Source: a virus
Strand: one strand, 5' to 3'
Length of the DNA: 28,225 nucleotides
Virus record (IMG/VR): IMGVR_UViG_3300008459_009749
Location: 1-28,225 of that record
Both the position numbers and the translations under genes were made by a program. The notes under the pieces are model-generated. The model did no database searches. It was not told the origin of the DNA and saw nothing but the letters and a program-made list of their open reading frames with translations. Positions 4,367 to 28,225 of the stretch are shown here, piece by piece. How positions within the stretch are numbered: position 1 is the stretch's first letter; every line of letters starts with the position of its first letter.

Positions 4367-4424
4367 TTATTAATATCTTATTTATTTATTGAGGATTCTT
4401 TATATTTTTTTCATAAAAAACTTT

Positions 4425-5672: not shown

Positions 5673-5675
5673 TAT

Positions 5676-7253
5676 ATGGCGAATATTTCATTTTATGGTT
5701 CACACAATTCTTCGGTTGTGGTCGAAGACAATGGTAAAATTATAACCGTCATTGAGGTTGAAAGATTCCTTAATGTTAAAAATGCGGGATATGGTCAATA
5801 TCTAACCTCTAACACTAGATTCTTTTTAATACAAGAAATCTTAAAGTATATTAAAACCGAATTTGGGTTTTCAGAATTTGAGAATTGTTATTACTCAAAT
5901 ACTGATACAATAGAAGGACCTAAAAAAGTTGATTACGAGAAATACATACCTGCAAAAAATTACGTTAATGTTTTACATCATTTGTCTCATGCTGCTTGTG
6001 GTTTATATCAAACCGATTATAAAAATGCTTTAATAGTTTCATTTGATGGTGGTGGGAGTGATGGATTCTTTAATATCTATATTTCTAAAAATAGAAACTC
6101 TATCGAGTTGTTAGATAAATATAATATTGATTTAGGTTTTGCTTATATGTCATTTGGTGATTATTTAGATGATATACGACAAGAACCTGCATTAAATATA
6201 GGTAATTTAGTGTATTCAGGTAAGATAATGGGGTTATGTTCATATGGTAATTTAAACAATGATTGGTTACCTTACTTTGAGGATTACTACAGGTCAAAAC
6301 CTGATGGTTTAAATTATTTAGACTTACTTAAAATTTTAGGTGAGAAGACGGGATTAGTATTTGACAGGAATAATCGTATTAATGGTCAATCCTCTTGGGA
6401 TGTTGCTAAAACTTCTCAAATCGCTTTTGAGAATGTCTTTATGGAGATTGTTTCACCGTTTTTAGAAAAACACCCAAAACTACCATTAATACTTGTTGGT
6501 GGTTGTGCTCTAAACATTTTACTAAATACAAAATTGTATAATGAATTAGACAGAGATGTGTTTATACCACCCAACCCAAACGATTGCGGAATTGCGGTTG
6601 GTATGATGTTACTACATATGAAACCTAAAAAATCAATTGATTTAACTTATTCTGGTATACCAATTTTAGATAAAAACACTTTAATGATGATTTCTGAAAA
6701 TCATTATAATACATCACCATTAGAAACGGGTCAAGTTGTAAAAGATTTAACGGATGGTAAAATTATCGGAGTTGTTAGAGGTAATTCAGAACATGGACCA
6801 AGAGCATTAGGAAACCGTAGTATTATATGTGACCCGTCACATACGAATATGAAAGATATATTGAACTCTAAAGTTAAAAATAGAGAATGGTATAGACCTT
6901 TTGCACCCGTTTGTAGATTAGAGGATATTGATAAGTATTTTAATTTTAGTGGTGAAAGTAGATGGATGAGTTTTTGTCCTGAAGTCAAAGAAGAATGGAG
7001 GGGAAAATTAACATCAATAACCCATGTTGATGGTACTGCAAGAGTTCAAACAGTTACGAAAGAACAAAATGAATGGTTATACAATTTATTGACCGAGTTT
7101 GAAAAACTCTCGGGTATTGGGGTTTTATTAAATACATCATTTAACGTAAACGGTAAACCTATACTATCCACATATAAAGACGCGATACATGTTTTTAAAA
7201 ACACCCAAATGGATAGATTAATATTAGAAGATTATTATATTATTAATAAATGA
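5676..7253 (+). CDS. Carbamoyltransferase (NodU/CmcH/TobZ family)
   Basis: A 525-residue member of the carbamoyltransferase family, which moves a carbamoyl group from carbamoyl phosphate through carbamoyl-AMP onto a hydroxyl of a sugar or antibiotic. The N-terminal Kae1-like domain shows GSHNSS at 8-13, HHLSHAACG at 101-109 (two metal-ligand His in an H-x3-H pattern) and FDGGGSDG at 123-130. NPNDCGIAVG lies further along. The C-terminal domain has EHGPRALGNRS from residue 372, the most diagnostic motif of the family, and LLNTSFNVNGKPI near the end. The start is 3 bases after the previous stop and the gene overlaps the next one by 4 bases, so it is part of a translationally coupled operon with glycosyltransferases. 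The likely substrate is the glycan made by its neighbours (inference). Confidence 0.94.
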   Translation: MANISFYGSHNSSVVVEDNGKIITVIEVERFLNVKNAGYGQYLTSNTRFFLIQEILKYIKTEFGFSEFENCYYSNTDTIEGPKKVDYEKYIPAKNYVNVLHHLSHAACGLYQTDYKNALIVSFDGGGSDGFFNIYISKNRNSIELLDKYNIDLGFAYMSFGDYLDDIRQEPALNIGNLVYSGKIMGLCSYGNLNNDWLPYFEDYYRSKPDGLNYLDLLKILGEKTGLVFDRNNRINGQSSWDVAKTSQIAFENVFMEIVSPFLEKHPKLPLILVGGCALNILLNTKLYNELDRDVFIPPNPNDCGIAVGMMLLHMKPKKSIDLTYSGIPILDKNTLMMISENHYNTSPLETGQVVKDLTDGKIIGVVRGNSEHGPRALGNRSIICDPSHTNMKDILNSKVKNREWYRPFAPVCRLEDIDKYFNFSGESRWMSFCPEVKEEWRGKLTSITHVDGTARVQTVTKEQNEWLYNLLTEFEKLSGIGVLLNTSFNVNGKPILSTYKDAIHVFKNTQMDRLILEDYYIINK

Positions 7254-8137
7254 AAAAAACAAAATTAGTTACCGCTTTTTACACACAAATACATGGTCAT
7301 CCTTTTTATGGTCACTTTGAAGTTTCTAGACACGAAAGGTACCTACACTCAATGAGAGTGTTAAATAACATGGGTCTTGAGATTGTTTGTTTTTGTAATG
7401 AAAATCAATACGATTTATTAAAATCTCATATAAATCAATATGATTTGTGTAATATTAATTTAAAAATTTCAAATCTATCAGATTTACCATTTTCAAAAAA
7501 GATGAAAGAAATAAAAGATAAAACAAATAGTTTTAAATTTTATCATGAAGTTGACTGGAATAAAATTTACTTATTAGATAAAGAGTATGACGAAACGTAT
7601 GACTATCTTTATTGGATAGATGTTGGGTTATCTCACCATGGGATTTTTCCAAACAAGTATAACCCTAATTCTAAATTAGCGACGGGTATGTCTCACGATT
7701 ATAACACTTATTCTTTTACCGATTTATTTACCGATAAATTATTTGTAGGGATTAATAATTTTCTCGGGGATAAGTTAATTAGTATTGAGAATGAATTAAA
7801 ATTTCATAACGTTTATGAACTTAATTCAATATTAGAGGGTGAATATGACTATAAGGGTTTAACCGTTGGGGGTATTTTAGGAGGCCATATCAGTAAAGTT
7901 AAATGGTTTATTAATAAGTTTAACGAATTAGGGGGGAAATCCCTAAATAAAGAAGTAATTCTAAACCATGAAGCAATAATCTCTTTTATGAAAGAATATA
8001 AGAAAGAGTATTTTAATACATTCCTTTTCCAAACTTGGTATCATGAAGATACAACAGGGTTACCTGATTACATTATTAAAGACCAAATACATTTTAGTCA
8101 TTTTTTTGACATGATTTACAAAAATTATATTTTATGA
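7250..8137 (+). CDS. HtrL/YibB-like glycosyltransferase
   Basis: A 295-residue protein with the pattern of GT-A-type transferases: KLVTAFYTQ near the start, a hydrophobic strand ending in LYWIDVGLSHHGIF near the middle that corresponds to the WIDAG motif of HtrL/WlaTC proteins, then a Gly-rich GGILGGH and a late WYHED. The neighbouring 788-residue protein has a clearer HtrL module with WIDAG at 366-370, which supports the assignment. The gene overlaps both neighbours by 4 bases (ATGA), so it is coupled to the carbamoyltransferase and to the trimodular enzyme. It probably adds a sugar to the same glycan. Donor and linkage are unknown, and the family call is moderate because only part of the motif set is visible. 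Confidence 0.7.
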   Translation: MKKTKLVTAFYTQIHGHPFYGHFEVSRHERYLHSMRVLNNMGLEIVCFCNENQYDLLKSHINQYDLCNINLKISNLSDLPFSKKMKEIKDKTNSFKFYHEVDWNKIYLLDKEYDETYDYLYWIDVGLSHHGIFPNKYNPNSKLATGMSHDYNTYSFTDLFTDKLFVGINNFLGDKLISIENELKFHNVYELNSILEGEYDYKGLTVGGILGGHISKVKWFINKFNELGGKSLNKEVILNHEAIISFMKEYKKEYFNTFLFQTWYHEDTTGLPDYIIKDQIHFSHFFDMIYKNYIL

Positions 8138-10500
8138 TAACAGATTTATTCGATAAGGGAGTACATCATATAGGTAAAACTATGAAAGATGTGGTAACGA
8201 TTAATATAGGTGCAATGGACGGAGTTTTATTTGATGAATTATACGGATACTCCAATATGTATGATTTTACGGGTCTATACGTAGAACCTGTCCCATACCT
8301 ATTTGAACGTTTAAAAAACAATTTAGGACCTAAACATATTTACGAAAATTCGGTTATTTCGGACCATGATGGATATGTTGATATGATTACAATTGATAGA
8401 GACGCTATTGATAATAAATTAGTTCATGAATGTTTTTATGGAATGAGTGCGGTTTATCCGCCAAAAAATGGTTTGGGTAGTGAGTTTGATAAACCGACAG
8501 TTGAAAAATACGGGAGAATGATAACAGTCCCTTGTATCAGTTTGTCCACATTATTTAATAAACACAACATAAACAAGTTTGAAATTTTCAAAGTGGATGC
8601 CGAAGGGTACGATTTTAAAATAATTAATCAGTTAGATTTAAGTAAATTCAAACCAAAAGTTATTAGATGTGAATGGATTAATTTATCTGACGATGAAAAA
8701 GAAACATTAACTAATCGATTAACCGAATTTGGTTATGTTTATGAAGTTTTACATGGTGATATTACCGCAATTAGTGATGATTTATATAAGTCATTAGAAG
8801 AACAGTTAGGGATTAAAAAAGTTAATAAAGTTACCATTGTGACAGGATTGTGGGATATTGGTAGAGGTAATTTAAGTGACGGATGGTCTAGAACCTACAA
8901 CCAATATATCGAAAGGTTTGAGAAAATATTATCCATAAAAGAAAATATGATAATCTATGGCGACCATGAATTGGAAACTATTGTGTTTAAGCATAGAACC
9001 CAAGAAAATACCCAATTTATTAGGAGGGATACCAATTGGTTTAAATACAATGAATTCTACAATTTAATACAAGACATACGAACAAATCCTGAATGGTCTA
9101 ATCAAGCACCTTGGTTGGGAGATTCCACACAAGCGAAATTAGAGATGTACAACCCATTAGTCATGTCAAAAATGTTTTTATTAAACGACGCTAGAATAAT
9201 GGATAAATTTAATTCGGAATATCTTTTTTGGATTGATGCTGGTATAACTAATACTGTTCATTCGGGATATTTTACACATGATAATGTTTTTGATAAGATA
9301 CCAAATATCTGTAACAAATTTATGTTTTTAACTTTTCCATATAATGCAGTTAATGAGATTCATGGTTTTAATTACAAAAAATTGTGTGAATATTCAGAAA
9401 GTGAAAATGTTAATAAAGTAGGTCGTGGCGGCTTCTTTGGTGGACCTAAAGAAACAATTTCAGAGACAAATAATATCTACTATCAATTATTAATAGATAC
9501 CTTAACCAAAGGTTATATGGGTACTGAGGAAAGTATTTTCACCATTATGTTATACAAATACCCAAATTTATTTGATTATTGTGAATTAGAGTCTAATGGT
9601 TTCATTTCTAAATTTTTTGAGGATTTAAAAAATGATTTGTGTGTTGTAAAGTCAGAAAAAATTAAATACATTATTAATTCTAATGTTGATTTATCTGACG
9701 TTGGGTTATATGTGATTGGGTTTAACAGTCCTAATCAATTTAAAACATTAATAAAATCTATGTTATCTTATGATGAAGATTTTATTAATAAACCAAAAAA
9801 ATACTTATTAGACAATTCTTCCGACTTATCAACAACATCAGAATATTTAAACATTTGCAAAGAATATAATTTTGAACATATAAAACAAGATAACTTAGGA
9901 ATCTGTGGTGGGAGACAGTGGATTGCGGAACACTTTGAGAAATCTAATCTGAAATATATGTTATTTTTTGAGGATGACATGTTCTTCTACCCAAATAAAG
10001 GTGAGGTTTGTAGAAATGGATTTAATAGATTTGTGGAAGATTTATATTCAAAATCTTTAAAAATTATAAAAAACGAAAATTTAGATTTCCTTAAATTAAA
10101 TTTTACTGAGTTTTATGGTGATAATTCTATACAATGGAGTTGGTACAACGTACCTCAAACTGTTAGAGATGAGGTATGGCCAAACAATAAAAAATTACCA
10201 GTTCAAGGATTAGACCCTAACGCACCAAAAACAAAGTTTGATAATATAAAATCATTAGATGGAATTCCATACTCATTAGGTGAGGTCTATTATTGTAACT
10301 GGCCTCAGATAGTTTCTAAAGAAGGTAATAAAAAGATGTTTTTAACAACTAAATGGGCCAGACCTTTTGAACAGACATGGATGAGTCATATATATCAAGA
10401 AACGATTAAAGGTAATATTAAATCAGGTTTATTATTATTGACACCCACAGAACATGATAGATTCGACCATTATGATGGGTCGTTAAGAAAAGAAAGTTAA
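8134..10500 (+). CDS. Trimodular FkbM methyltransferase - HtrL-like glycosyltransferase - GT2-like glycosyltransferase
   Basis: A 788-residue fusion of three enzymes. Residues ~1-225 are an FkbM-type SAM-dependent methyltransferase: the SAM-binding INIGAMDG is at 23-30, VEPVP follows the second strand, and KVDAEGYD is at 153-160. Residues ~230-510 are an HtrL/WlaTC-like glycosyltransferase that begins with VTIVTGLWDIGRG and has WIDAG at 366-370. Residues ~525-788 resemble a GT-A transferase with a metal-binding EDD at 613-615 (FFEDDMFFY). FkbM enzymes usually O-methylate sugars. The gene is the last of the operon and overlaps the previous one by 4 bases. Together the modules could extend and cap an O-glycan, with the methyl group on a sugar hydroxyl (inference). 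The third module is the least certain, since only the EDD motif and its setting are clear. Confidence 0.88.
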   Translation: MITDLFDKGVHHIGKTMKDVVTINIGAMDGVLFDELYGYSNMYDFTGLYVEPVPYLFERLKNNLGPKHIYENSVISDHDGYVDMITIDRDAIDNKLVHECFYGMSAVYPPKNGLGSEFDKPTVEKYGRMITVPCISLSTLFNKHNINKFEIFKVDAEGYDFKIINQLDLSKFKPKVIRCEWINLSDDEKETLTNRLTEFGYVYEVLHGDITAISDDLYKSLEEQLGIKKVNKVTIVTGLWDIGRGNLSDGWSRTYNQYIERFEKILSIKENMIIYGDHELETIVFKHRTQENTQFIRRDTNWFKYNEFYNLIQDIRTNPEWSNQAPWLGDSTQAKLEMYNPLVMSKMFLLNDARIMDKFNSEYLFWIDAGITNTVHSGYFTHDNVFDKIPNICNKFMFLTFPYNAVNEIHGFNYKKLCEYSESENVNKVGRGGFFGGPKETISETNNIYYQLLIDTLTKGYMGTEESIFTIMLYKYPNLFDYCELESNGFISKFFEDLKNDLCVVKSEKIKYIINSNVDLSDVGLYVIGFNSPNQFKTLIKSMLSYDEDFINKPKKYLLDNSSDLSTTSEYLNICKEYNFEHIKQDNLGICGGRQWIAEHFEKSNLKYMLFFEDDMFFYPNKGEVCRNGFNRFVEDLYSKSLKIIKNENLDFLKLNFTEFYGDNSIQWSWYNVPQTVRDEVWPNNKKLPVQGLDPNAPKTKFDNIKSLDGIPYSLGEVYYCNWPQIVSKEGNKKMFLTTKWARPFEQTWMSHIYQETIKGNIKSGLLLLTPTEHDRFDHYDGSLRKES

Positions 10501-12676: not shown

Positions 12677-14485
12677 ATGGAATTTTTCATTAAAAAAAAT
12701 GCGACTTTACCACTTTTAAAATTACAAGTTGTAAAAGATGGTAGAAGTGACTACAATAACTTTATGAAAAGTTTAGAAGAGTCTGCCATATTCTTTTCAA
12801 TGGTCGATTCCGATAGCGGGATTCCAAAAATAACCTCAAGACCTGCTGGTTTTGTTGAGAAGACTTTTATAGACCCAAACGCGGAACCTGAATATTATAT
12901 TTATTACCAATTTCAAAATAGAGACACTAATAAAGTAGGCCGATACGAAGGACAGTTTATGTTAAGAACTGATGACGGTGTTTTAATCCTACCAATAAGA
13001 GAGAAATTATTTATTAATGTACAAGAATCTTTTATTGCTGATGACTTACCGTATGAAACTTGTTATACATCTGAGTTTCCTTGTTGTTTACCAAATGGTA
13101 TAACAACAACAACCACAACATGTAATTGCCCAACGTGTCCCCCATGTCCATCACCGACGCCAACCCCTGAACCAGTTACGACGACAACTACTTATTCCCC
13201 AATTACTACAACAACTACAACAAATATTCCGTTGTCTGTTGTTTTAGACGTTGATATTAACCCTGGTTCGATAGTTATCGATTATAATTTAACTGCTAAT
13301 CAATATGTTGATGAAGAGGTTTATTTTGGGTTTACTCATTTTTTAGGTACTTATACAGGTTCACCGATAACGATAGTTACAGGTGTAACAATATCAATAG
13401 GTGATATTTCAGGTAATACCCAAGTTACAATTAATGATGATTTTAATAATTTATCAAGAGAAGATGGTTTTGGGGATTTCACATTTATACCTCCATTTTT
13501 TGAGTGGGTTATCTACGAGAATTACCCAACATCAACCCCTACTCCTACCCCAACATCAACCCCTACCCCAACTCCTACTGAAACTTTAACACCAACTCCA
13601 ACTCCTACTGAAACTTTAACACCAACACCTACCCCGACATACACTCCGACAGAGACACCAACACCTACCCCGACCCCTTGTGTCACTGGTGAAACTTTCA
13701 CAACAATAACAAATACTAATTGGATATATCCACAATCGGACATCGATACCGCATTATCGTTAACAACAATACCATATACTGCAATCAATAATACCTTGTA
13801 TTTTAACACTATCACTGATATGGGAACCGTGTACGATGAGGTGTTTGCTCAAACCGCTATATCACAACCATTAGGGAATCAAGGTTATTCTTTAGGGGTT
13901 GGTACTGAATTGCAAAATTATTATACTTTATTATATTGGAAATTATCTCCAACCGACGAACTTATTGTGACTTGGAACCTAACCCAACAATTAACTGACC
14001 AAAGTACTTTACCTACACCAGGAGAATCCCCAAATGGGACTATTGGTTATTTAACAAGATATGAGAATTGGCCGATTAACCAAAGACCTCAGTTTTATGA
14101 CCCTGTGTTATCAGTAGAAGGTCCGATTATCTGTGTAACACCTACCCCTACACCTACACAAACCCCAACACCTTCACTTTGTGGACCTAACCCATACCAA
14201 ATATTTTTAACATTCTCAACTAACACAACAGGGGCGTTCACATCAGATTTAAATTTAGCGTGTTCAGCATTAAGTTGTTTAAGTTCATCGTCATGTTTTG
14301 GGGCGGGAGCAATTTCAGGGTGGTTTAATAGTACATCTCCACAAGTTGGGGATTCTATTTACTCATCGTGCTCCTCAGTCATTCCTTCATCGGTTAATGG
14401 TTTTTATATTGTTAATGTAAACTCGGTTTATACATTATACGAATTCTCAAACGGGGTTATTGTATCAACTCCTACATGTCCTTAA
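12677..14485 (+). CDS. Multidomain virion protein with Thr/Pro linkers
   Basis: A 602-residue protein in four globular parts joined by linkers. Residues 1-140 resemble the Ig-like N-terminal modules that dock fibre or baseplate proteins, with patterns such as DGRSDY, FFSMVDSDSGIPKI and EGQFMLRTDDG. Linker 1 (141-186) is Cys/Pro/Thr-rich with runs of six Thr and the cluster CNCPTCPPCP. A beta domain spans 187-283. Linker 2 (284-334) is TPTPT/ETLTP repeats. A domain at 335-476 is followed by a short linker 3 and a Cys/Ser-rich end (492-602). The layout matches the giant protein at 266-4366, so both are probably appendage proteins of the same virion. The Thr linkers could be glycosylated by the adjacent operon (inference). 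The start follows the palindromic leader; no Shine-Dalgarno sequence is seen. Confidence 0.83.
   Translation: MEFFIKKNATLPLLKLQVVKDGRSDYNNFMKSLEESAIFFSMVDSDSGIPKITSRPAGFVEKTFIDPNAEPEYYIYYQFQNRDTNKVGRYEGQFMLRTDDGVLILPIREKLFINVQESFIADDLPYETCYTSEFPCCLPNGITTTTTTCNCPTCPPCPSPTPTPEPVTTTTTYSPITTTTTTNIPLSVVLDVDINPGSIVIDYNLTANQYVDEEVYFGFTHFLGTYTGSPITIVTGVTISIGDISGNTQVTINDDFNNLSREDGFGDFTFIPPFFEWVIYENYPTSTPTPTPTSTPTPTPTETLTPTPTPTETLTPTPTPTYTPTETPTPTPTPCVTGETFTTITNTNWIYPQSDIDTALSLTTIPYTAINNTLYFNTITDMGTVYDEVFAQTAISQPLGNQGYSLGVGTELQNYYTLLYWKLSPTDELIVTWNLTQQLTDQSTLPTPGESPNGTIGYLTRYENWPINQRPQFYDPVLSVEGPIICVTPTPTPTQTPTPSLCGPNPYQIFLTFSTNTTGAFTSDLNLACSALSCLSSSSCFGAGAISGWFNSTSPQVGDSIYSSCSSVIPSSVNGFYIVNVNSVYTLYEFSNGVIVSTPTCP
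13526..13678 (+). repeat. Thr/Pro linker repeat inside the multidomain protein
   Basis: In-frame low-complexity coding repeats (TPTPTSTPTPTPTETL type), including a near-exact tandem copy of a unit encoding PTPTPTETLT. It is of the same class as the repeats in the first two genes of the window. Confidence 0.85.
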
Positions 14486-17744: not shown

Positions 17745-18866
17745 TTAAATTACGTATATTTGTCTTGGCATTGCAGTAAACTTCTTTTGTTTATTTAAAT
17801 TTTCTGCTAACAATGCTTCTCTTTCCATTACTTTTTCAGGTCTTAATCTTGTAAGTCGACCTTCAGCACCTATTAATTCTTCGATTAACTTTGTTTTTTC
17901 ATCCTTACCTTCAGTTGCTAATGATTGATAATCCATAGTTAATTCACTATCAGGAGTTTTAATGTTACCACTAAATTTACCTCTTACTTTGGATAGTGTT
18001 TCTTTTGCTGACGCGAAAAAATATCTACGAACCCAAATCTGAGCGGGGTTATTTAAATCAACCCAAGATATTTTATCTAAAGGTACGTCAGAAGGTAATT
18101 TAATAATATCAGGATTGTCTTTTAAACATTTATCTCTATCGGCAGGACCTACGTCATAATACCAATACCAAACTTGACCTCTAGATAATGAACCGTTACC
18201 AAAGTCAAATTTACCTCCAGGTACGTTCATTAAATGAACCGCTTTTTTACCATCAGGTAATGCGGTAATTCTATATGTTAAATCACCACCAATTATCCTT
18301 CTTTGTATATTAATTTCTTGTAGTCTTAATAACATATCAAAAGCAGGCATCATAAAATAAGACCCTGTATACCCCATTTGAGAATATCCTGCGGGACCTC
18401 CTAAACCTGCCCCACCTAACGCTCCAAATGACCACGGGTCAAATAAAATATTGTTAAGAGCACTTGGGGTGAACCACATTAATTCATTTATTTCTCTGCC
18501 CGCAGGTATTTCATAAATTTGTTTACCTCGTTCTAACGTAAAGAAATCTTTCTTTAAAACATAATCACCACCCGCTTGTAAACCAACTATTTTGGAGTAT
18601 GCGTATGTGTATCTATCTTCATAATCTAAACTTTTAGTTATAAAGGCTTTAGATAAGGACTGAGTATCTAAGTTAAGATTATACAATGATGTCCATTGAG
18701 ATTCAATTAACCAATCTTGGATGTATTGGGAATAATCCTCGATAGCAATCTCAAGAAGAGAATCCAATTGCTCGTCTTCTAATTCGACACTTCTTAAAGG
18801 AGCTCCTAATACGTGTCTTAATCTAGTATATAATTTAGTTCTTTCTGGTTCAGCAATAATTGACAT
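17745..18866 (-). CDS. T4 gp13-like neck (head completion) protein
   Basis: A 373-residue protein. Its N-terminal segment (RHVLGAPLRSVELEDEQLDS followed by a helical AIEDYSQYIQDW) matches the opening pattern of gp13-type neck proteins, LGAP-x-VE-hydrophobic-x-DEQ-h-x-x-h. In T4, gp13 and gp14 form the neck that seals the filled head and receives the tail. The middle contains a Gly-rich hydrophobic insertion at about 146-169 (FGALGGAGLGGPAGY) that is unusual for the family. The start is followed downstream by the small 117-residue gene. The partner gp14-like gene lies about 3.4 kb away on the opposite strand. The assignment rests on pattern and gene neighbourhood (gp14-, gp15- and gp18-like genes nearby), so it is good but not certain. 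Confidence 0.75.
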   Translation of the reverse strand: MSIIAEPERTKLYTRLRHVLGAPLRSVELEDEQLDSLLEIAIEDYSQYIQDWLIESQWTSLYNLNLDTQSLSKAFITKSLDYEDRYTYAYSKIVGLQAGGDYVLKKDFFTLERGKQIYEIPAGREINELMWFTPSALNNILFDPWSFGALGGAGLGGPAGYSQMGYTGSYFMMPAFDMLLRLQEINIQRRIIGGDLTYRITALPDGKKAVHLMNVPGGKFDFGNGSLSRGQVWYWYYDVGPADRDKCLKDNPDIIKLPSDVPLDKISWVDLNNPAQIWVRRYFFASAKETLSKVRGKFSGNIKTPDSELTMDYQSLATEGKDEKTKLIEELIGAEGRLTRLRPEKVMEREALLAENLNKQKKFTAMPRQIYVI

Positions 18867-18887: not shown

Positions 18888-20426
18888 TCATTTCAGTTGA
18901 TAAATTAACGATTCTTTAGGAAAGGTATAAGACCCATTAACTATTTTAGTATTTGAATTATCAAAAATGGATACTCCTCTACCTTTTCTTGCAAAAATTA
19001 ACCAATCAGTTGTATATTTTTTCACCTGTCCCGTATTCAGTACCGTCATAATACCATTCTCCTCAACGATGTTACCGTATGGTTTTATTTGACATGTTTT
19101 AGTTTCCCCATCAATCTTGACTTTACAATCAATCCCTTGAATCATATCCTCTTTATTACCTAACTCCCCGATTTGAATAACGTTTTCATCCCCAAATTCT
19201 TTATTAAGTACTCCAACCGCATAGTCTTCAGTTTCACCACCCATGGTATGGGTAGACCCTAAGGTTAACATCAGATTTTTAAAAGTTTCAGAATTAGTAT
19301 TAAAAATTCTTTCTTTATATTTGTCAATTATCGATATTAATTTCTTAGTATTACTTATCTGGGTAAACGGAGGTAATCCAACCATTTTAAGTTCGGGTTG
19401 ATTGGACGCTCTTAACACTTTATTAACATCTCTTAATAATATACAAAAACAACTATAATTAGTGTTTAGTTTATTAATTACTGACCTACCACCACTTTCT
19501 AAATCATAGATACCTGACATGGACCCATCAGAATATTTATCCTTATCATAATAATTTTTAGGAAAAACATTTTTTAAAATATCATCAATACCGTATCTAA
19601 AAATATTTTTAACTTTTGGGTTAACATTAAAAATAAAACGTATTGCTTCATTCATTTCCCTACTACATTTTTCACCAACACTTTCTGTTAGAATTTTTTT
19701 AACCATATTACTTTCATTTAATTTTGTTTTATCTTTTAATGAAAATAATTTATCAACAAATTCCCAATTAACAACGTCCCAAAAATTTTTAATATACTCA
19801 TCTCTTTTATTTCTATATTTCAGATAATAGGCATGTTCCCATAAATCTAAACCTAATATAGGATAACCACCATCTTTAACAATATTCATTAGTGGATTAT
19901 CTTGGTTTGGGGTTGTTGTTATCTTTAAATTATTTTTTTTAGTTAAGACTAACCACACCCAACCTGAACCAAAACTATCTTTTGCAGATTCCTCAAATTT
20001 AGATTTGAAATTCTTATAACTACCAAAATCTTTATTTAATTGTTTTAATAATTTATTGGAAGGTTTTTGTTTTTTTGGAGATAACATCTTCCAAAATAAA
20101 GCGTGGTTAAATGCACCACCTGCGTTATTCCTAATTGTTTTATTAAATTTACTAATAGATTTAACAATTTCCTCAAGTTCTAAATCACCACCTTTTTGTT
20201 TTGATAACGCTTTATTGAGTTTCTCAACATATCCTTTATAATGTTTGTTATAGTGATATGTCATTGTTTCGGCATCAATGAATTGTTTTAAGGCCGAGTA
20301 AGTGTAAGGTAATTTTTCAATACCTATTTTTTTCATTTCAAGAAGAAATAGAGATTCATTTTCTTTTTCTTCATGTAAGATTAACGATTCATTTATTAGG
20401 TTAATCTTATCTTGTATTTTTTTCAT
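18888..20426 (-). CDS. Mn/Fe superoxide dismutase fused to a PD-(D/E)XK-like module
   Basis: A 512-residue two-part protein. Residues ~36-229 are a full Fe/Mn superoxide dismutase, which converts superoxide to oxygen and hydrogen peroxide. The four metal ligands are present: H58 (YHYNKH), H108 (FNHALFW), D194 and H198 (LDLWEHAYY). The active-site Gln sits in NQDNPLM (Q175), as in Mn enzymes, while the Fe-type Gln position is Gly. Residues ~241-512 are a separate module with GGETEDYAVGVL, then GIDCKVKIDG (D433) and CQIKP (Q446, K448), the spacing of a PD-(D/E)XK nuclease fold with a QxK variant. A related module ends the protein at 22803-24290. An internal MVKKILTES at the junction looks like the former start of the second gene. 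Stand-alone superoxide dismutases are ~200 residues. Nuclease activity is inferred, not shown. Confidence 0.9.
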   Translation of the reverse strand: MKKIQDKINLINESLILHEEKENESLFLLEMKKIGIEKLPYTYSALKQFIDAETMTYHYNKHYKGYVEKLNKALSKQKGGDLELEEIVKSISKFNKTIRNNAGGAFNHALFWKMLSPKKQKPSNKLLKQLNKDFGSYKNFKSKFEESAKDSFGSGWVWLVLTKKNNLKITTTPNQDNPLMNIVKDGGYPILGLDLWEHAYYLKYRNKRDEYIKNFWDVVNWEFVDKLFSLKDKTKLNESNMVKKILTESVGEKCSREMNEAIRFIFNVNPKVKNIFRYGIDDILKNVFPKNYYDKDKYSDGSMSGIYDLESGGRSVINKLNTNYSCFCILLRDVNKVLRASNQPELKMVGLPPFTQISNTKKLISIIDKYKERIFNTNSETFKNLMLTLGSTHTMGGETEDYAVGVLNKEFGDENVIQIGELGNKEDMIQGIDCKVKIDGETKTCQIKPYGNIVEENGIMTVLNTGQVKKYTTDWLIFARKGRGVSIFDNSNTKIVNGSYTFPKESLIYQLK

Positions 20427-20428
20427 AT

Positions 20429-20458
20429 GGCTTATAATAATATATTAATAAATAAGCC
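20429..20458 (-). promoter_or_regulatory. Hairpin just before the dismutase-fusion start
   Basis: A 7-base inverted repeat, GGCTTAT at 20429-20435 and ATAAGCC at 20452-20458, with a 16-base AT-rich loop. On the coding strand it ends 2 bases before the ATG. It lies between the helicase stop and the dismutase start, so it may terminate the helicase message or control translation of the fusion protein. Confidence 0.45.
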
Positions 20459-20469
20459 GACATTTCAAA

Positions 20470-22194
20470 TTATCTCAAAGAATGGATTCGATTCATCATC
20501 TCTTCAACAATATCTCCCCTATCAAAATTATCCCCCATAACGGTCTCAAATATATTTTTCTTATTTGCTAGAATATCGTAAATAATCCCTTCAATAGTGT
20601 TTTCAAATATTGGATAATAAACAGACACATTTGATTTTTGACCGTATCGATACGCCCTATCTTCGGCTTGTGAATGGTCGGATGGAACAAAAGATAAATC
20701 ATTCATTATAACCGCTTCACCCGCAGTTAATGTTAAACCAACACCCGCAGCTTTAAGGTTACCAACAAAAACTTTAATTTTGTCATTATCTTGAAATTGG
20801 TCAACCGCGTATTGTCTTTGGGGTTTACTACTACTTCCATCTAATCTGACCGCTTGTTTACCAAAATGGTCCGCAATTTTATTTAATGTGTCAGTAAAAT
20901 TTGTGAAAATTATTACTTTTTTATCTTGGTCTATTATATTTTGAGCTAATTCTATGGTATTTGATATTTTTTCCTCGGCAATAACTTGTCTAACTTTCAT
21001 TAGTTTTGAAAATTGGACTGTTAGGGAATTAGATTCCTCTTTTTTGTTATCATACCAATTATAATACTCACCCATTAAACCTTCATACAATTTAGATTTT
21101 AATCTTAGGTATACAGGTGTTATAATTTTGTCAGGTAAATCTAAAACATCGGTTTTTAATCTCCTCAAAACTTGTCTTGAGGTTCTGTCTCTTAATTCCT
21201 CCAAGTTTGATGCTCCTGAAACGTTCCAAATTTTACGATTACCCGCTTTAAATTGATATCCTTGACAATATCTAATCGCATACGCCATCCAATTTTGAGC
21301 GACAGGACTTTCAATTAAACTTAATAAGTTAAAGTAATTCATAGGTCTTGAAGTCATCGGGGTACCTGTCAATAACCAAAGTCTTTCTGCTCTTTTACTA
21401 AAACTATTAACTAATTTAGTTCTTTGTGCTTGACCATTTTGGATATAGTGAGCTTCATCAATTATGATTAATTCAGGGTTGAATTGGTATATTAAACTTT
21501 CTTCTTTACCTTTACCTGTATCGTAAAAATTCTTTAAAATATCATAATTAACGATTACAAAATCATGTTCTAATGAAAAGTTTTTACCTTCAGCAATGTA
21601 CACACTTCTATCAGTGTAATTAGAAATTTCCCTCTGCCAATTTATTTTTAAAGAAGCGGGACAAACTATTAAAATTCTTTTAGCACCTGTTTCAATAGCC
21701 GCAATAATAGTTGACGTTGTTTTACCTAATCCCATGTCATCGGCTAAAATATATCTTTTAGAACCCGCTAAATTTTCAATTGCAGTGATTTGGTGTGATA
21801 ATGGAGGTCTATGGGAGTACTTTGTGTAATCTATCTGTACCTTATCAATTTTATGGGTTTTAAGTAAAGCTCCTTTAGGTAACCAAAAATCGTGTAAAGG
21901 TTCGTTATCAAAAAATTTACCCCAAATATGATAAGACTTTTCTTTTTCGGCCAATAATTTCTCAACCCAAACCTGCTCAGGGATTGACATAAATAACTTT
22001 TCATCTGCGATTTTTTTCGCGAAGTATGGGTCCATATCAACCCATTTACGAGCAACTTTTGGTTTTACATCGCAGTAATTTATAATATACTCGGATTGAG
22101 CTCTTGTTGGATAGAATTTTTTATTTGATTCTTTTTTAGATTTAATATTTAAGATATGGTTATTCGCCCCTGAATACGATTCAAGAATATTCAT
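20470..22194 (-). CDS. SNF2-family DNA helicase/translocase
   Basis: An ATP-dependent DNA translocase of 574 residues. The Walker A motif is DDMGLGKT (K158), motif II is DEAH (236-239), motif III is LLTGTP (264-269), and the C-terminal helicase domain has SQAEDRAYRYGQ with the arginine fingers. The compact two-domain core, without large insertions, resembles the SMARCAL1/HepA-like branch involved in fork remodelling and repair; in T4-like phages UvsW plays a similar role. The first ~110 residues are a separate N-terminal part I cannot place. The frame opens at a GTG at 22236, but I prefer the ATG at 22194 because GAGG lies 8 bases before it. The gene starts a reverse-strand operon from a 54- to 96-base divergent region shared with the gp14-like gene. 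Confidence 0.94.
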   Translation of the reverse strand: MNILESYSGANNHILNIKSKKESNKKFYPTRAQSEYIINYCDVKPKVARKWVDMDPYFAKKIADEKLFMSIPEQVWVEKLLAEKEKSYHIWGKFFDNEPLHDFWLPKGALLKTHKIDKVQIDYTKYSHRPPLSHQITAIENLAGSKRYILADDMGLGKTTSTIIAAIETGAKRILIVCPASLKINWQREISNYTDRSVYIAEGKNFSLEHDFVIVNYDILKNFYDTGKGKEESLIYQFNPELIIIDEAHYIQNGQAQRTKLVNSFSKRAERLWLLTGTPMTSRPMNYFNLLSLIESPVAQNWMAYAIRYCQGYQFKAGNRKIWNVSGASNLEELRDRTSRQVLRRLKTDVLDLPDKIITPVYLRLKSKLYEGLMGEYYNWYDNKKEESNSLTVQFSKLMKVRQVIAEEKISNTIELAQNIIDQDKKVIIFTNFTDTLNKIADHFGKQAVRLDGSSSKPQRQYAVDQFQDNDKIKVFVGNLKAAGVGLTLTAGEAVIMNDLSFVPSDHSQAEDRAYRYGQKSNVSVYYPIFENTIEGIIYDILANKKNIFETVMGDNFDRGDIVEEMMNRIHSLR

Positions 22195-22236
22195 TGCTTT
22201 AACCTCAATTAAGTTAGAACTGTTTTCTACTGTCAC

Positions 22237-22290: not shown

Positions 22291-22803
22291 ATGAATAATA
22301 AAGTACCAATCACTAGAGTCGGTAAATTTTTTGGTTCCGACGATTATAACCTTGACTTATCAATAGGGGAAGAATGGTTATATGGGGATATGAACTTCAC
22401 ATTAGTTCTTTATCGAATTGATAGGGTTAAAACTAAAACTGATGATGTTTACGGTGAAACGGTAAAAGACGGAATTAAGTTTTTACCTCCTGTCGAATTT
22501 AAGGGATACGTTCAAATAATGGCTCCTGAAAACAAAACGATTGGAACATCAAAAGTTAATCAATTTGAGCCAGGTAATATAAAAGTTTCTGTTTATATTA
22601 GACATTTAGAAGAATTAGGTATTGATATTAGTTATGGTGACTATATTGGTTATTATGAAACAGAAGATAAAGTGAGATATTATGTGGTTAATAATGATGG
22701 TAGAGTTGTTTCAGATAATAAACATAATTATGCGGGATATAAACCATATTATAGAACAATTGGTGGTTCTGCAGTAACTGAAAATGAATTTAGAGGGTTG
22801 TGA
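22291..22803 (+). CDS. T4 gp14-like neck protein
   Basis: A 170-residue protein resembling the core of T4 gp14 in order and pattern: an early YRIDRV stretch in place of YYVPRE, then DVYGETV in place of FGED, a central strand (VEFKGYVQIM) followed by VKVSVYIRHLEELGIDISYGDYIGYYE that matches the GDLIYFP segment, and RYYVVNNDG. gp14 works with gp13 to complete the neck on filled heads. The protein is shorter than T4 gp14 (256) and lacks its C-terminal part. The stop overlaps the next start by one base (TGATG), so translation is coupled to the zinc-ribbon protein. The similarity is at pattern level, supported by the gp15-like and sheath genes that follow. Confidence 0.68.
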   Translation: MNNKVPITRVGKFFGSDDYNLDLSIGEEWLYGDMNFTLVLYRIDRVKTKTDDVYGETVKDGIKFLPPVEFKGYVQIMAPENKTIGTSKVNQFEPGNIKVSVYIRHLEELGIDISYGDYIGYYETEDKVRYYVVNNDGRVVSDNKHNYAGYKPYYRTIGGSAVTENEFRGL

Positions 22804-24290
22804 TGAAAATTATATTAACTGAAAACCAAATAGTTTCTTTATTAGAAAAAATAAATTCTAATACAGTTACCTGTGATAAATGTGGATGGTCGTGGGATTT
22901 ATCTGATGGGGGTGATGACCCTTATATTTGTCATAAATGTGGTCATAATAATTCTGAAGAGGATTATATTGGTAAAAAAGTTATGGTGTATTATAATTTA
23001 CACAAAGAAACATTTTCCGTAACATATAAATCTAAAGTTGTTTTACACGCCGATTATGTAAAGTTAGGTAATGTTGAATTTAGAGTTAGACAAGGGGGTA
23101 AAGAAAAGGTTAGGGATGAAAAACGAAAAAACGTCCACGCATTTGTAATTGGTAAATTATTAGATTTTTGTGAATATCCTTGTGATAAAATACCTGAAGA
23201 GTCAACTTCTAAAGTTGTTACATACAATCCATACAAATATGACAGTTTTGTATATAAAGATACTGAAGAACCTGTATATAATGCAAAAGAGGTTGATATG
23301 ATTAACCGTAAGAATAAATTATTTGTTATATCTGAAATTGTGTCCTCATTAAATGAAAATGAAGAGGTTAACGAGGAATTAAATAAATTCACATATACAA
23401 CAATAGGGTTATTTCAAAAAGGTACGACTAAAAGATATTATTTTAACGACCCTAAACCTGTGGAAGGTAGAGACATACCTAACGGTATGATTGGTATTAA
23501 CGGAGCTTTGGGTAATTTTTTATTTAATAAAGATGACATTGGGTATGATTCAAAAAATAATAAACTTTTTGTTAATAAAGATGTTTTAGATTCTAAATAC
23601 AACGGTATTAAAAGTAGCAGTGATGCTGAGAAGATAGGGATTACTCCAACTAAAATTAGAGAAGCTCTGAATAAAGCATTTCCTGAAAATTGGCATGATG
23701 AAGACTCGATATTTACATCAGGGTTAAGAGATATCTATTCTATAGGTGAAAAAACCAATGATAGTGAAGAGACTTGGTCAATTATGAATTATTTCGACAC
23801 CAAACCAGAGATACACGCCTTACTTTATTTGAAGTATATGGATGAAGAATCTGACAAAGATATTGTTGACTGGATGGTTGACCTTTTTAGAAATGATAAA
23901 GGATTCACTCAACTACTCGTTGATAGACAATGGAATTCAATAGAAAATGGTTTAAGACTTGAGAGAGATTCAGTCTCAAACTTTTTAGATAAGATGGGTT
24001 CAGGAAATGTTGTCTATTACCCTCATGGTTCTAAAATGGATAGATGGTCAGGAGTCGATGTTACTATCGATGGAGTTAATTATCAAATTAAACCTTTAAA
24101 ATCTTATGAAGAAAATGATGGAGTGTTTACAGTAAACACTTATGGTATGAGAGATTATACGTCAAAAACTAAATTAAATAAAATAGCATTTGCAAATTCT
24201 AAAGAAGTTTTAGTTTTCGATAATAAAAATTATAATGTAATTAGTAGAAATAAAGTGGTGTTTAAACAGACCCCAAATATCATAAATTAA
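22803..24290 (+). CDS. Zinc-ribbon protein with a C-terminal PD-(D/E)XK-like module
   Basis: A 495-residue protein. It starts with MKIILTENQIVSLLEKI, followed by a zinc ribbon with C24/C27 and C43/C46 (CDKCGWSW and CHKCGHN). Residues ~57-120 form a basic domain ending in RKNVHAFVIG that I recognise only as a recurrent unnamed domain. The C-terminal third has LRLERDSVSNFL, then GVDVTIDG (D419) and YQIKP (Q428, K430). This is the same E...D...QxK pattern as in the dismutase fusion at 18888-20426, and the stretches before it also align (FPENWHDED against FPKNYYDKD, then G-x-x-DIY against G-IYDL). The frame could begin with GTG at 22800, but the ATG overlapping the previous stop fits better and has AGAGGG upstream. 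The function is unknown; a DNA-processing role near the neck genes is an inference. Confidence 0.82.
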   Translation: MKIILTENQIVSLLEKINSNTVTCDKCGWSWDLSDGGDDPYICHKCGHNNSEEDYIGKKVMVYYNLHKETFSVTYKSKVVLHADYVKLGNVEFRVRQGGKEKVRDEKRKNVHAFVIGKLLDFCEYPCDKIPEESTSKVVTYNPYKYDSFVYKDTEEPVYNAKEVDMINRKNKLFVISEIVSSLNENEEVNEELNKFTYTTIGLFQKGTTKRYYFNDPKPVEGRDIPNGMIGINGALGNFLFNKDDIGYDSKNNKLFVNKDVLDSKYNGIKSSSDAEKIGITPTKIREALNKAFPENWHDEDSIFTSGLRDIYSIGEKTNDSEETWSIMNYFDTKPEIHALLYLKYMDEESDKDIVDWMVDLFRNDKGFTQLLVDRQWNSIENGLRLERDSVSNFLDKMGSGNVVYYPHGSKMDRWSGVDVTIDGVNYQIKPLKSYEENDGVFTVNTYGMRDYTSKTKLNKIAFANSKEVLVFDNKNYNVISRNKVVFKQTPNIIN

Positions 24291-25617: not shown

Positions 25618-28225
25618 ATGGCATCTAACAACAAAGTATTCGTATCTCCTGGGGTGTACACATCAGAGGTGGATTTAAGTTTTGTGGCTCAAAGTGTTGG
25701 GGTTACAACTTTAGGGATTGTTGGTGAGACTTTAAAAGGTCCTGCTTTCGAACCTATTTTTATTAGAAACTTCGATGAGTTTACAACATATTTTGGGGGA
25801 ACTTCACCTGAAAAATTCATAAACACACAAATACCTAAATATGAAGGTGCGTATATCGCAAAATCATATTTACAACAATCTAATCAGTTATTCGTAACTA
25901 GAGTTTTGGGTTTGTCAGGTTATGACGCTGGTCCGTCATGGTCAATTACTACTAAAGCAAACGTGGACCCAAACACTATTGATTTTTATTGTACTGACCC
26001 AGTAATAACAAATTGTTTACCTGAATGTAATGAATATCTTACTATTGATTATGAGATTGACTTTACAGGTTGTACAAATGACGTTAGTTCAATATCGTTT
26101 ATAACTCCGTCTCAAATTCCTGATGAAATTGCTGCAAAAATGAATTTGTCTTATGAGAAATTTAATGGGTCAACATCTACTTTATATCAAGATATGACAA
26201 ATCAAATTTTTGATATATTAAATGATAACTCATTAGAATTAACTTCTATTAATTATTATGGGGCAATCTCAGGAGAAACTTACGACATATTATCAACTAT
26301 ATACACCGCAGAAACAAACGTTTTTGGTGTTGAGAATGTTAACGCATCGTCAATTGATTTCACCGCTTCGGTTAACGACCCTTGGTATTATGCAACATTT
26401 GATAACATTGGAAACGCAGTTTATAGTGGATTTTCATATTGGAGTGTTGTAACTAATTTAGAATTAATTCCTGTTACTACAACTACAACATTAGTACCAC
26501 CAACTACAACAACTACTACAACAAATCCTTGTGTTACACCAACACCTACATCAACTACAACAACTACAACCGCAGCTCCTGTTAATTGTTATACAGGTAC
26601 ACTTATCGGTAGAGTTTACATCTTCTCAGGTACGGCATACACCGATTATGACGACTTAGTAATTGCTACATTACGTTCAAGAGGTTTAGCAACATATGGT
26701 ACAGATGATGGAGCGGTATATGAAGTATCAGGTTTAACTGATGTTGAGATGGTTTGTGGAAATGAGTATTCTGCAGTTACTAAAAACCCTTACTCAACTT
26801 TCGCTTTAAATGTAACAGATAAAGATAATAATAAATTTTTCTTTGAGACATCGTTCTCAAATTCAGATAGTAAGTATATTACCAAAGTATTTGGTACTTC
26901 TAACTTCGCAAAACCTAAAGATGTCGTTCCTCTATTTGTTGAGGAGAGATTCCAATCGTTATTAAATTACGCGTGGAGAAAAGGTTACATTAGAGGTTTA
27001 AATTGTGAATTAACTGCGTTACCAAACGCAAGACAAGGTAGTGACCCTACTTCAATCGCTTGGTACTTAGAAAAATATCAATCACCTGTGTCTCCTTGGG
27101 TTGTTTCAGAATTAAGAGGTAATAAAGTTTATAACTTATTTAAAGTGACAACAATTGCGGACGGAGATTCGGCAAACATCGAAGTTAAAATCTCTATTGC
27201 GAATATCTCATTTGGTAACGGTACTTTTGATGTGTTAGTTAGAGATTTCTTTGACTCTGATTCCGCACCTACAGTACTTGAGAAATTTACAAATTGTTCT
27301 ATGGACCCAAGTCAGAATAATTTCATCGCTAAGAAGATAGGAACAGTTGATGGTGAGTACGCTTTAAATTCAAAATTCATCATGGTCGAAATTAATGAGG
27401 ATGCTCCTGTAGACGCATTACCTTGTGGATTCCAAGGATACTCGTTTAGAGAATATTCGGGAGTTAGACCACCATTCCCAATTTATAAAACTAAATACGA
27501 TTTCCCAGGTGAAGTAGTTTATAACCCACCGTTTGGTTTATCATCAGGGGCTGATGACATCGTAAGAAGTGCTGGTGACAATGTTCGTAGAACTTATTTA
27601 GGTATTTCAGATACTGTTGGGTTTGATGTTGATTTTTATGGTTACAAAGGTAAACAATTACCATTAGATATTTGTACAGACGTTAGTGGTGAAGATTGGT
27701 TCTATAAAACAAGAGGTTTCCACATGGATGTAAACGCTTCGGCAATAACAATTAGTAACGGATTTGTTACTAGTGGTACACCAGCATTCTACGTAGGTTC
27801 AGCACCGTTTACGACTGACCCTGAAGATTCTTCTAACCCTTATTATAGATTATTTGCACGTAAATTTAGTTTCTTATGTTCAGGTGGTTTTGATGGATGG
27901 GACATTTATAGAGACTACAGAACTAACGGAGATAGATTTGTTTTAGGTCAATCAGGTTATAGAAAAGGGGCTTGTCCTTCATTTAAATACCCTACCGCAA
28001 CAGGATGGGGAGCGTTTAAACAAATTACTGTTGGTGATAACACTCAGGATTGGGCAAATACTGACTATTACGCATACTTGTTAGGTCAAAAAACATTTGC
28101 AAACCCTGAAGCGGTTAACATAAATGTTTTCGTAACACCTGGTATTGATTATGTTAATAACTCTAACTTAGTTGAGGATTCTATAGATATGGTTGAAAAT
28201 GATAGAGCGGATTCAATCTACATTT
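25618..28225 (+). CDS. 18: Tail sheath protein, T4 gp18-like (3' partial)
   Basis: The contractile tail sheath subunit. 869 codons are visible and the frame is open at the window end. The start (FVSPGVYTSEVDLSF, then GVTTLGIVGETLKGPAFEP and IRNFDEFTTYFGG) is the hallmark of gp18-type sheaths. Later parts include RLFARKFSFLCSGGFDGWDIYRD split over codons ~745-770 and QKTFANPEAVNINVFVTPGID near the end, matching the conserved C-terminal sheath core. The sheath contracts to drive the tube through the host envelope. The protein is already longer than T4 gp18 (659). Part of the excess is a Thr/Pro/Cys-rich segment at about 285-321 with runs of five to seven Thr. The start follows a long A/T leader with a late promoter candidate. 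Confidence 0.95.
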   Translation, partial: MASNNKVFVSPGVYTSEVDLSFVAQSVGVTTLGIVGETLKGPAFEPIFIRNFDEFTTYFGGTSPEKFINTQIPKYEGAYIAKSYLQQSNQLFVTRVLGLSGYDAGPSWSITTKANVDPNTIDFYCTDPVITNCLPECNEYLTIDYEIDFTGCTNDVSSISFITPSQIPDEIAAKMNLSYEKFNGSTSTLYQDMTNQIFDILNDNSLELTSINYYGAISGETYDILSTIYTAETNVFGVENVNASSIDFTASVNDPWYYATFDNIGNAVYSGFSYWSVVTNLELIPVTTTTTLVPPTTTTTTTNPCVTPTPTSTTTTTTAAPVNCYTGTLIGRVYIFSGTAYTDYDDLVIATLRSRGLATYGTDDGAVYEVSGLTDVEMVCGNEYSAVTKNPYSTFALNVTDKDNNKFFFETSFSNSDSKYITKVFGTSNFAKPKDVVPLFVEERFQSLLNYAWRKGYIRGLNCELTALPNARQGSDPTSIAWYLEKYQSPVSPWVVSELRGNKVYNLFKVTTIADGDSANIEVKISIANISFGNGTFDVLVRDFFDSDSAPTVLEKFTNCSMDPSQNNFIAKKIGTVDGEYALNSKFIMVEINEDAPVDALPCGFQGYSFREYSGVRPPFPIYKTKYDFPGEVVYNPPFGLSSGADDIVRSAGDNVRRTYLGISDTVGFDVDFYGYKGKQLPLDICTDVSGEDWFYKTRGFHMDVNASAITISNGFVTSGTPAFYVGSAPFTTDPEDSSNPYYRLFARKFSFLCSGGFDGWDIYRDYRTNGDRFVLGQSGYRKGACPSFKYPTATGWGAFKQITVGDNTQDWANTDYYAYLLGQKTFANPEAVNINVFVTPGIDYVNNSNLVEDSIDMVENDRADSIYI
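26470..26580 (+). other. Thr-rich linker insertion inside the tail sheath
   Basis: Codons ~285-321 of the sheath encode runs of 5, 7 and 6 Thr with Pro, Ser and one Cys, unlike the rest of the protein. It resembles the linkers of the mucin-like and multidomain proteins and is probably exposed on the outer surface of the tail. Confidence 0.8.

Follow-up and report, generated by a model that had tools for sequence, protein, structure and literature searches.

The gene at positions 18888..20426 probably encodes a packaged, late-expressed cargo polyprotein, which would be cut in the prohead into a free superoxide dismutase (SOD) and a free nuclease, the two being probably ejected together with the DNA. 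We base this reading on features of the sequence, that is, the domains, the invariant sites, the position of these sites at the domain borders, the protease and its substrates in relatives, and the late-type motif upstream of the gene. The assembly principle is a known one, and the SOD-nuclease cargo is new.

The fusion gene and its relatives

The window, that is, the whole stretch of DNA analysed, was 28,225 nt in length and came from IMG/VR record IMGVR_UViG_3300008459_009749. The fusion gene and its two neighbours in the window are the following:

18888..20426, minus strand: SOD / PD-(D/E)XK polyprotein gene, 512 aa (Pfam; frame open and full-length in 80/80 related loci)
20470..22236, minus strand: SNF2-family helicase gene, immediately upstream (Pfam SNF2-rel_dom, 3.9e-30; conserved neighbour; without late-type motif)
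17745..18866, minus strand: head-tail adaptor (Ad2/neck-like) gene, immediately downstream (phrog_211, 7.4e-10; own late-type motif at -22)

The open reading frame of the fusion runs from 20426 to 18888 with its ATG at 20426, and over the same positions the plus strand has stops throughout. Relatives were taken from IMG/VR, where at least 597 loci were confirmed, and the best 80 of these were used for the comparison. The SOD and the C-terminal module lie in one open frame in all of these 80 loci, whose fusions are 52-71% identical (the window's own contig excepted). Gene order around the fusion is conserved among them: the SNF2 helicase is upstream in 80/80 loci (at most 600 bp away in 78) and the head-tail adaptor (phrog_211) follows in 78/80 (at most 600 bp away in 70). 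We also considered the helicase as UvsW and rejected this assignment, the database matches supporting an SNF2-family helicase and no more.

The original prediction had described a SOD fused to a nuclease-like module, and this fusion, on the minus strand and in 80/80 loci, is real. It had also allowed for a sequencing or assembly error joining two genes at the MVKKILTES junction. The same fused frame in 80/80 contigs refutes this; we found no point in favour of such a joining, and we give it a practically negligible probability.

A search for the same domain order in phage databases, which had been proposed as a check, returned the fusion in 80/80 of the IMG/VR loci examined and no full-length fusion in INPHARED. 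Many INPHARED matches resemble bacterial SODs and come from 'phage' records that are whole-genome-shotgun or unannotated contigs; the others are standalone phage SODs or one module-only protein. The GTDB species genomes gave SOD-only matches, none of them with the fusion; a cellular origin, or a host copy, of the fusion was likewise considered and set aside, the genome contig search having yielded SOD-only matches. In BFVD there was a match of 501 aa, named 'superoxide dismutase [uncultured Caudovirales phage]', hence such sequences have already been deposited. The open-access literature gave neither a description of a SOD-nuclease fusion nor a paper on 'phage-encoded superoxide dismutase'.

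Superoxide dismutase domain

19728..20330, minus strand: Mn-type superoxide dismutase domain, aa 33-233 (Pfam; VIA Z 24.6 to 4yip)

Judged by sequence and fold, aa 33-233 are a complete SOD of the Fe/Mn family and of the Mn type. At aa 36-226 Pfam matched both Sod_Fe_N (2.5e-23) and Sod_Fe_C (1.6e-40), and the metal ligands H58, H108, D194 and H198, assigned by motif, are invariant in 80/80 homologues, which bears out the claim of an Mn/Fe SOD with all four ligands. The second-sphere residues Y66 and Q175, the latter within PNQDNPLM, are invariant in 80/80 too, and from this second-sphere Gln we take the subtype to be MnSOD. The VIA fold search with the full-length model retrieved 4yip (Z 24.6), aligned to its residue 1, and solved SODs align from residue 33 to 233-235 of the fusion protein.

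Of the solved SODs, the MnSOD of the Bacteroidota bacterium Sphingobacterium sp. T2 is closest in sequence. Identity to the nearest solved bacterial SODs (SodFM, Mn subtype) is ~40-44%, and these have the same full domain, the four ligands, the Tyr and the Gln. What sets the present domain apart from Fe/Mn SODs is that it is phage-encoded and flanked by an N-terminal extension, a processing-type linker and a nuclease-type module. As to the statement that SOD is rare in phages, standalone phage SODs are not especially rare, examples being those of the jumbo phages PA5oct and Vibrio 2.275.O and of freshwater phages (PMC6802176). Those of freshwater phages have been interpreted as auxiliary genes for ROS defence (PMC6802176, PMC12542629), and giant eukaryotic viruses likewise package a SOD (PMC9405923).

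C-terminal module

18891..19676, minus strand: PD-(D/E)XK-type module, aa 251-512 (AF2 pLDDT 93.6, pTM 0.87; PDB matches; invariant residues)
19227-19229, minus strand: module residue E400
19128-19130, minus strand: module residue D433
19089-19091, minus strand: module residue Q446
19083-19085, minus strand: module residue K448

The module (262 aa) was folded by itself, from an alignment of 40 sequences, because the fold search with the full-length model had listed SODs only. The AF2 prediction was a confident one (pLDDT 93.6, pTM 0.87) and gave a PD-(D/E)XK-like fold for the C-terminal part, in agreement with the original prediction. The top PDB matches of the model are PD-(D/E)XK enzymes, namely Hjc resolvases (Z 8.4), I-Ssp6803I (7.6), NhoI (7.5), Eco15I, HhaI, DpnI, RecU, PvuII and EcoRV; the best of them (2wcw, 102 residues, 3.4 A) has a Z of 8.4, barely above the tool's caution level of 8. 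With Foldseek against the PDB the best E was 3.1e-3, none being under 1e-3. The Z values of the model are thus modest singly, yet the matches agree on one superfamily, PD-(D/E)XK.

The pattern E400...D427..G-I-D433...Q446-x-K448 is invariant in 80/80 fusions and in distant paralogous modules, so that the claimed module of ~270 residues with E...D...QxK is confirmed at the level of the pattern. Precisely, E400, D427, G431, D433, Q446 and K448 are among the invariants across 23 divergent modules (distant paralogues 20-25% identical). E400 is predicted on a long helix, D433 just ahead of a strand and QxK in the strand that follows, and in the model this is the placing required in the PD-(D/E)XK superfamily.

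Compared with Hjc resolvases, I-Ssp6803I and NhoI/Eco15I, the module shares the core fold (module residues 141-262) and the same order of E on the helix, D and QxK, with a D-to-Q spacing of 13. In contrast, its identity to those enzymes is ~6-16%, Q replaces E in (E/Q)xK, and there is an additional N-terminal helical subdomain, which carries an invariant SxxNxxxT. Pfam gave no family above cut-off for the module, with a weak RE_MjaI match in 4/40 members (best E 0.002); no PHROGs family matched it, and a profile search of solved structures returned weak unrelated matches only, for instance eIF2 alpha. The module is a predicted nuclease, the activity being assigned from fold and residues only.

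Putative processing sites around the SOD

20337..20426, minus strand: N-terminal extension, aa 1-30, putative capsid-targeting/pro-peptide, predicted helix, ending at L28-L-E30
19713..19721, minus strand: predicted prohead-protease site L236-N-E238|S (E238 in 80/80)
19683..19691, minus strand: predicted prohead-protease site L246-T-E248|S (E248 in 79/80)

In phage T4 the prohead protease gp21 cleaves after L/I-X-E, and internal proteins have a 10-residue N-terminal targeting sequence that is cleaved at such a site (PMC9026906). The contexts of E30, E238 and E248 match this rule and, as predicted sites, bracket the SOD exactly. As [LI]xE is a short motif, frequent by chance (~0.45 sites per 100 aa when P1' is permissive), the argument for processing relies on the invariance and the position of the sites and not on the occurrence of the motif.

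We considered both the 80 homologues and 25 representatives, that is, sequences under 75% identity. E30 is invariant in 80/80, with L/I/V at P3; E238 is invariant in 80/80, with L/I/V/M at P3 but L/I/V in 25/25 representatives; E248 is found in 79/80 homologues and 25/25 representatives, with I/L at P3. Among the representatives these three residues are the sole fully conserved columns of the N-extension and the linker, all three sites have L/I/V at P3 (75/75 cases), and the mean frequency of the top residue is 0.50 in the N-extension, 0.55 in the SOD-module linker and 0.83 in the SOD. Both GAA and GAG are used for the three Glu, hence selection acts on the residue. P1' of the first site is mostly Met (18/25 representatives), unlike the Ser/Asn/Ala at the other candidate sites. 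AlphaFold pLDDT is <50 around residues 22-32 and 233-238, which is consistent with accessible sites. We regard this as strong evidence, of the kind that sequences can give, for processing.

Head genes and cargo-type signals in relatives

Genes for both gp21 and gp23 are present in G001 and G002 (322 kb), the longest two of the relatives; the fusion protein of G001 has 513 aa. The 28-kb window does not cover that region and is without gp21, which is known from relatives only. The gp23 of the relatives has LINE|ATSDG in its N-terminal region. Between portal and gp21 there is a probable prohead-core protein that is the densest of the proteome in [LI]xE[SAGNTQ], with rank 1 in both G001 (8 sites/238 aa, p 1.7e-5) and G002 (7 sites/249 aa, p 2e-4), and its sites LNES, IKES and INET resemble those of the SOD linker. 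In T4 this position is occupied by gp67/68, which are fragmented by gp21.

Moreover, both proteomes have an excess of [LI]xE at residues 6-10 (62 against 27.6 shuffled, maximum 41, and 59 against 29.9, maximum 52), which is about twofold and is driven by families starting with MKxxITES and MKKIIRLTES. There are also arrays of small unrelated proteins in G001 (L089-L105) and G002 (L106-L122), for instance at G001 31641-34179 and G002 313405-317767, which begin with MKxxITES, MKKIIRLTESDLxxIVKRxxxE or MNLQENIxRIxxMMxxINE. These N-termini are probably capsid-targeting signals (CTS), and the arrays a reservoir of packaged cargo similar to an IP locus.

The module in other proteins

22800..24290, plus strand: second module-bearing protein (Pfam Phage_L5_gp82, 2.6e-31; iterative profile match)

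As judged from the proteins in which it occurs, the module is mobile and is found with differing partners. The second protein of the window consists, in order, of an N-terminal MKIILTE|NQ, a zinc-ribbon-like stretch, an L5 gp82-like domain, a linker with LNE|N and the module. In 12/12 of its homologues the hypervariable inter-domain linker holds an invariant Glu in [LI]xE context, and another is at the N-terminus. The module is also present in the gene directly after the fusion in locus L068, as a stand-alone protein with N-terminal MKITISEGQ between the gp21 and scaffold genes of G001 (118104-119060; not seen at that place in G002), and in a protein of a 735-kb phage, where E, D, Q and K are kept and there is no obvious targeting peptide. 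In the relative L143 a SOD is followed by two modules in tandem, with two [LI]xE sites at each joint (LMES/IKE after the SOD and KKLTES/LLE after module 1). With the exception of the 735-kb phage, the carriers of the module have T4-targeting-like N-termini with [LI]xE or similar (MKIILTENQ, MKITISEGQ); one of them, MKYIFTESQ, has F at P3.

Promoter motifs

20447..20455, minus strand: late-type promoter motif TTATTTATT, 29 nt upstream of the ATG (motif found de novo in relatives)

For the de novo motif search we counted 8-mers upstream of genes in G001 and G002. TATTTAT[ACT] was found ~20-30 nt ahead of start codons (near -25), with ATATTTAT in 58 upstream regions against 3.0 expected. The motif is upstream of the fusion in 77/80 homologues, precedes the genes for scaffold, gp21, core and portal proteins in G001, G002 or both, and in the window stands ahead of the head-tail adaptor, the sheath and the SOD fusion; it is absent ahead of the helicase and DNA polymerase genes. 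From the genes downstream of it, we infer that TATTTAT is a late promoter. The association between CTS and late promoter is modest (26/99 against 94/651, p 0.005).

Two other candidates were rejected. The T4 late promoter TATAAATA was not in excess, the window having 8 sites against 7.7 expected, and the longer motif GCTTATTTAT was local to the fusion gene, with 1 site near gene starts in G001 and none in G002, so the shorter TATTTAT[ACT] was taken as the general motif. The spacer between helicase and SOD (20427-20460, minus strand) has a partly palindromic GGCTTATTTAT...ATAAGCC that overlaps the late-type motif, its left arm being better conserved among relatives than the right.

A second class of motif upstream of genes in G001 and G002 is TATCTTTG, which we take to resemble the vegetative promoter of Bacteroidota (-7 element). 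The gp23 is similar to that of Flavobacterium phages, and this similarity, the TATCTTTG motif and the Bacteroidota-like SOD together suggest a Bacteroidota host. The phage is a T4-like jumbo phage, probably of Bacteroidota.

Comparison with known systems

The T4 proteins IPI/IPII/IPIII and Alt are capsid-targeted, processed by gp21 and ejected. The present system shares with them an N-terminal peptide ending in [L/I]xE, a gp21-type protease (in relatives), a late-type promoter motif, and diverse cargo genes with a similar N-terminus (MKxxITES.../MKKIIRLTES...). It differs in that SOD and PD-(D/E)XK are in one polyprotein, whose internal sites would release two or three enzymes; in addition, the N-extension resembles the targeting sequence of the T4 internal proteins but is longer, with ~30 aa compared with 10.

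The PA5oct SOD, EST35_0261, also has a site of the [LI]xE type, IAE|A, directly ahead of its SOD domain, but it is standalone, ~27% identical and without the nuclease module. Its record has the note 'ESI-MS/MS', as have the portal, head, baseplate and tail proteins of PA5oct, which we take to mean virion proteomics. Vibrio phage 2.275.O likewise has a SOD of its own, also standalone; we observed that this protein (L124 2968-3537) has a C-terminal tail containing LDE|S, which may be a processing site at the C-terminus as in T4 Alt. The phiKZ-like giant phages (201phi2-1, phiKZ, SPN3US) likewise have a large capsid protein load cut by a prohead protease after Glu, at S/A-x-E, whereas here we have T4-type gp21/gp23 and [LI]xE. 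The papers that we consulted on phiKZ-like ejection proteins do not mention a SOD-nuclease pair.

Proposed mechanism and alternative explanations

Packaging, actual cleavage, ejection, and enzymatic activity with its purpose are the steps that we infer. The N-terminal peptide would take the precursor into the prohead core, where a gp21-type prohead protease would cleave after E30, E238 and E248 ([L/I]-x-E|), freeing a Mn-type SOD of native length and a separate PD-(D/E)XK nuclease domain. The N-terminal peptide and the E238-E248 linker peptide would be discarded; T4 propeptides, too, are mostly removed. SOD and nuclease would remain inside the mature head, from which they would most likely pass into the host together with the DNA. 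The SOD may then neutralise superoxide during the first minutes of infection, or may protect the packaged genome beforehand, and the nuclease may have as its target the DNA of the host or of a competitor, or junction-like DNA. The phage's own DNA could be spared by modification, by a nuclease inactive until cut or ejected, or by action on special structures only.

The reading originally proposed stands in part: the SOD ligands and the PD-(D/E)XK-like fold agree with it, and the prohead-protease-type sites at the junction and N-terminus speak against a single bifunctional chain. Of the roles suggested there, protection of packaged DNA and delivery of a DNA-processing enzyme may each apply, packaging now being supported by sequence. 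A 'redox-linked' activity has no such support, and since the tether seems made to be cut, we disfavour a tethered enzyme of this kind. That the fusion is always one ORF, with key residues kept in both domains, would also suit an intact bifunctional cytosolic enzyme whose tethered SOD shields replicating phage DNA from oxidative damage. We hold this to be quite unlikely, in that it leaves unexplained the three invariant linker Glu in gp21 consensus at domain borders, the same rule in the unrelated gp82-module protein and in the three-domain variant L143, and the late-type promoter. Still less probable is an auxiliary metabolic (moron) SOD aiding the host cell, its linker Glu being kept for folding or helix capping: this is how freshwater phage SODs have been interpreted (PMC6802176, PMC12542629), but the gene has a late-type promoter and a position beside the head-tail adaptor, and [LI]xE is invariant in linkers that are hypervariable and of low pLDDT.

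Another explanation overlaps with packaged, cleaved cargo as regards packaging and differs on the module, which would be a structural or targeting domain (a DNA-binding anchor or a core-binding handle) of PD-(D/E)XK fold and not a nuclease. The differing partners, nearly all with N-terminal targeting-like peptides, and the module-only gene that G001 has between its gp21 and scaffold genes fit it. However, a pure anchor would need none of E, D, Q and K, which are invariant across modules 20-25% identical, and the catalytic-type residues are also found in the 735-kb phage protein, which lacks an obvious targeting peptide; we consider a non-nuclease module unlikely, though worth keeping in view.

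Returning to the cargo polyprotein, a wider reading, for which the chances seem to us evenly balanced, is that a widespread freshwater jumbo-phage clade delivers SOD and one or two PD-(D/E)XK nucleases jointly at infection, as a ready-made kit against the oxidative burst and for attack on DNA, and that the dozens of genes with the same N-terminal signal are further injected cargo. If the proposal is true, this would be a phage delivering superoxide dismutase out of the capsid, and reactive oxygen would matter to phages, either during the opening minutes of an infection or while the particle is free in sunlit water. In these jumbo phages the rule of an invariant [LI]xE at domain borders singles out tens of otherwise anonymous genes as candidates for injected effectors, and it would also serve to recognise capsid cargo from sequence.

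Other features of the window

Very long Thr/Pro repeats (TPTxTPTN...) are found at 266-4366, 12677-14485 and 25618-28224 of the window, in probable structural proteins, and include an insertion in a tail-sheath-like protein. A cluster at 4389-10500 encodes a GlcNAc-type glycosyltransferase, a carbamoyltransferase and an FkbM methyltransferase fused to an HtrL/YibB-like domain, and it probably modifies the virion surface or host glycans.
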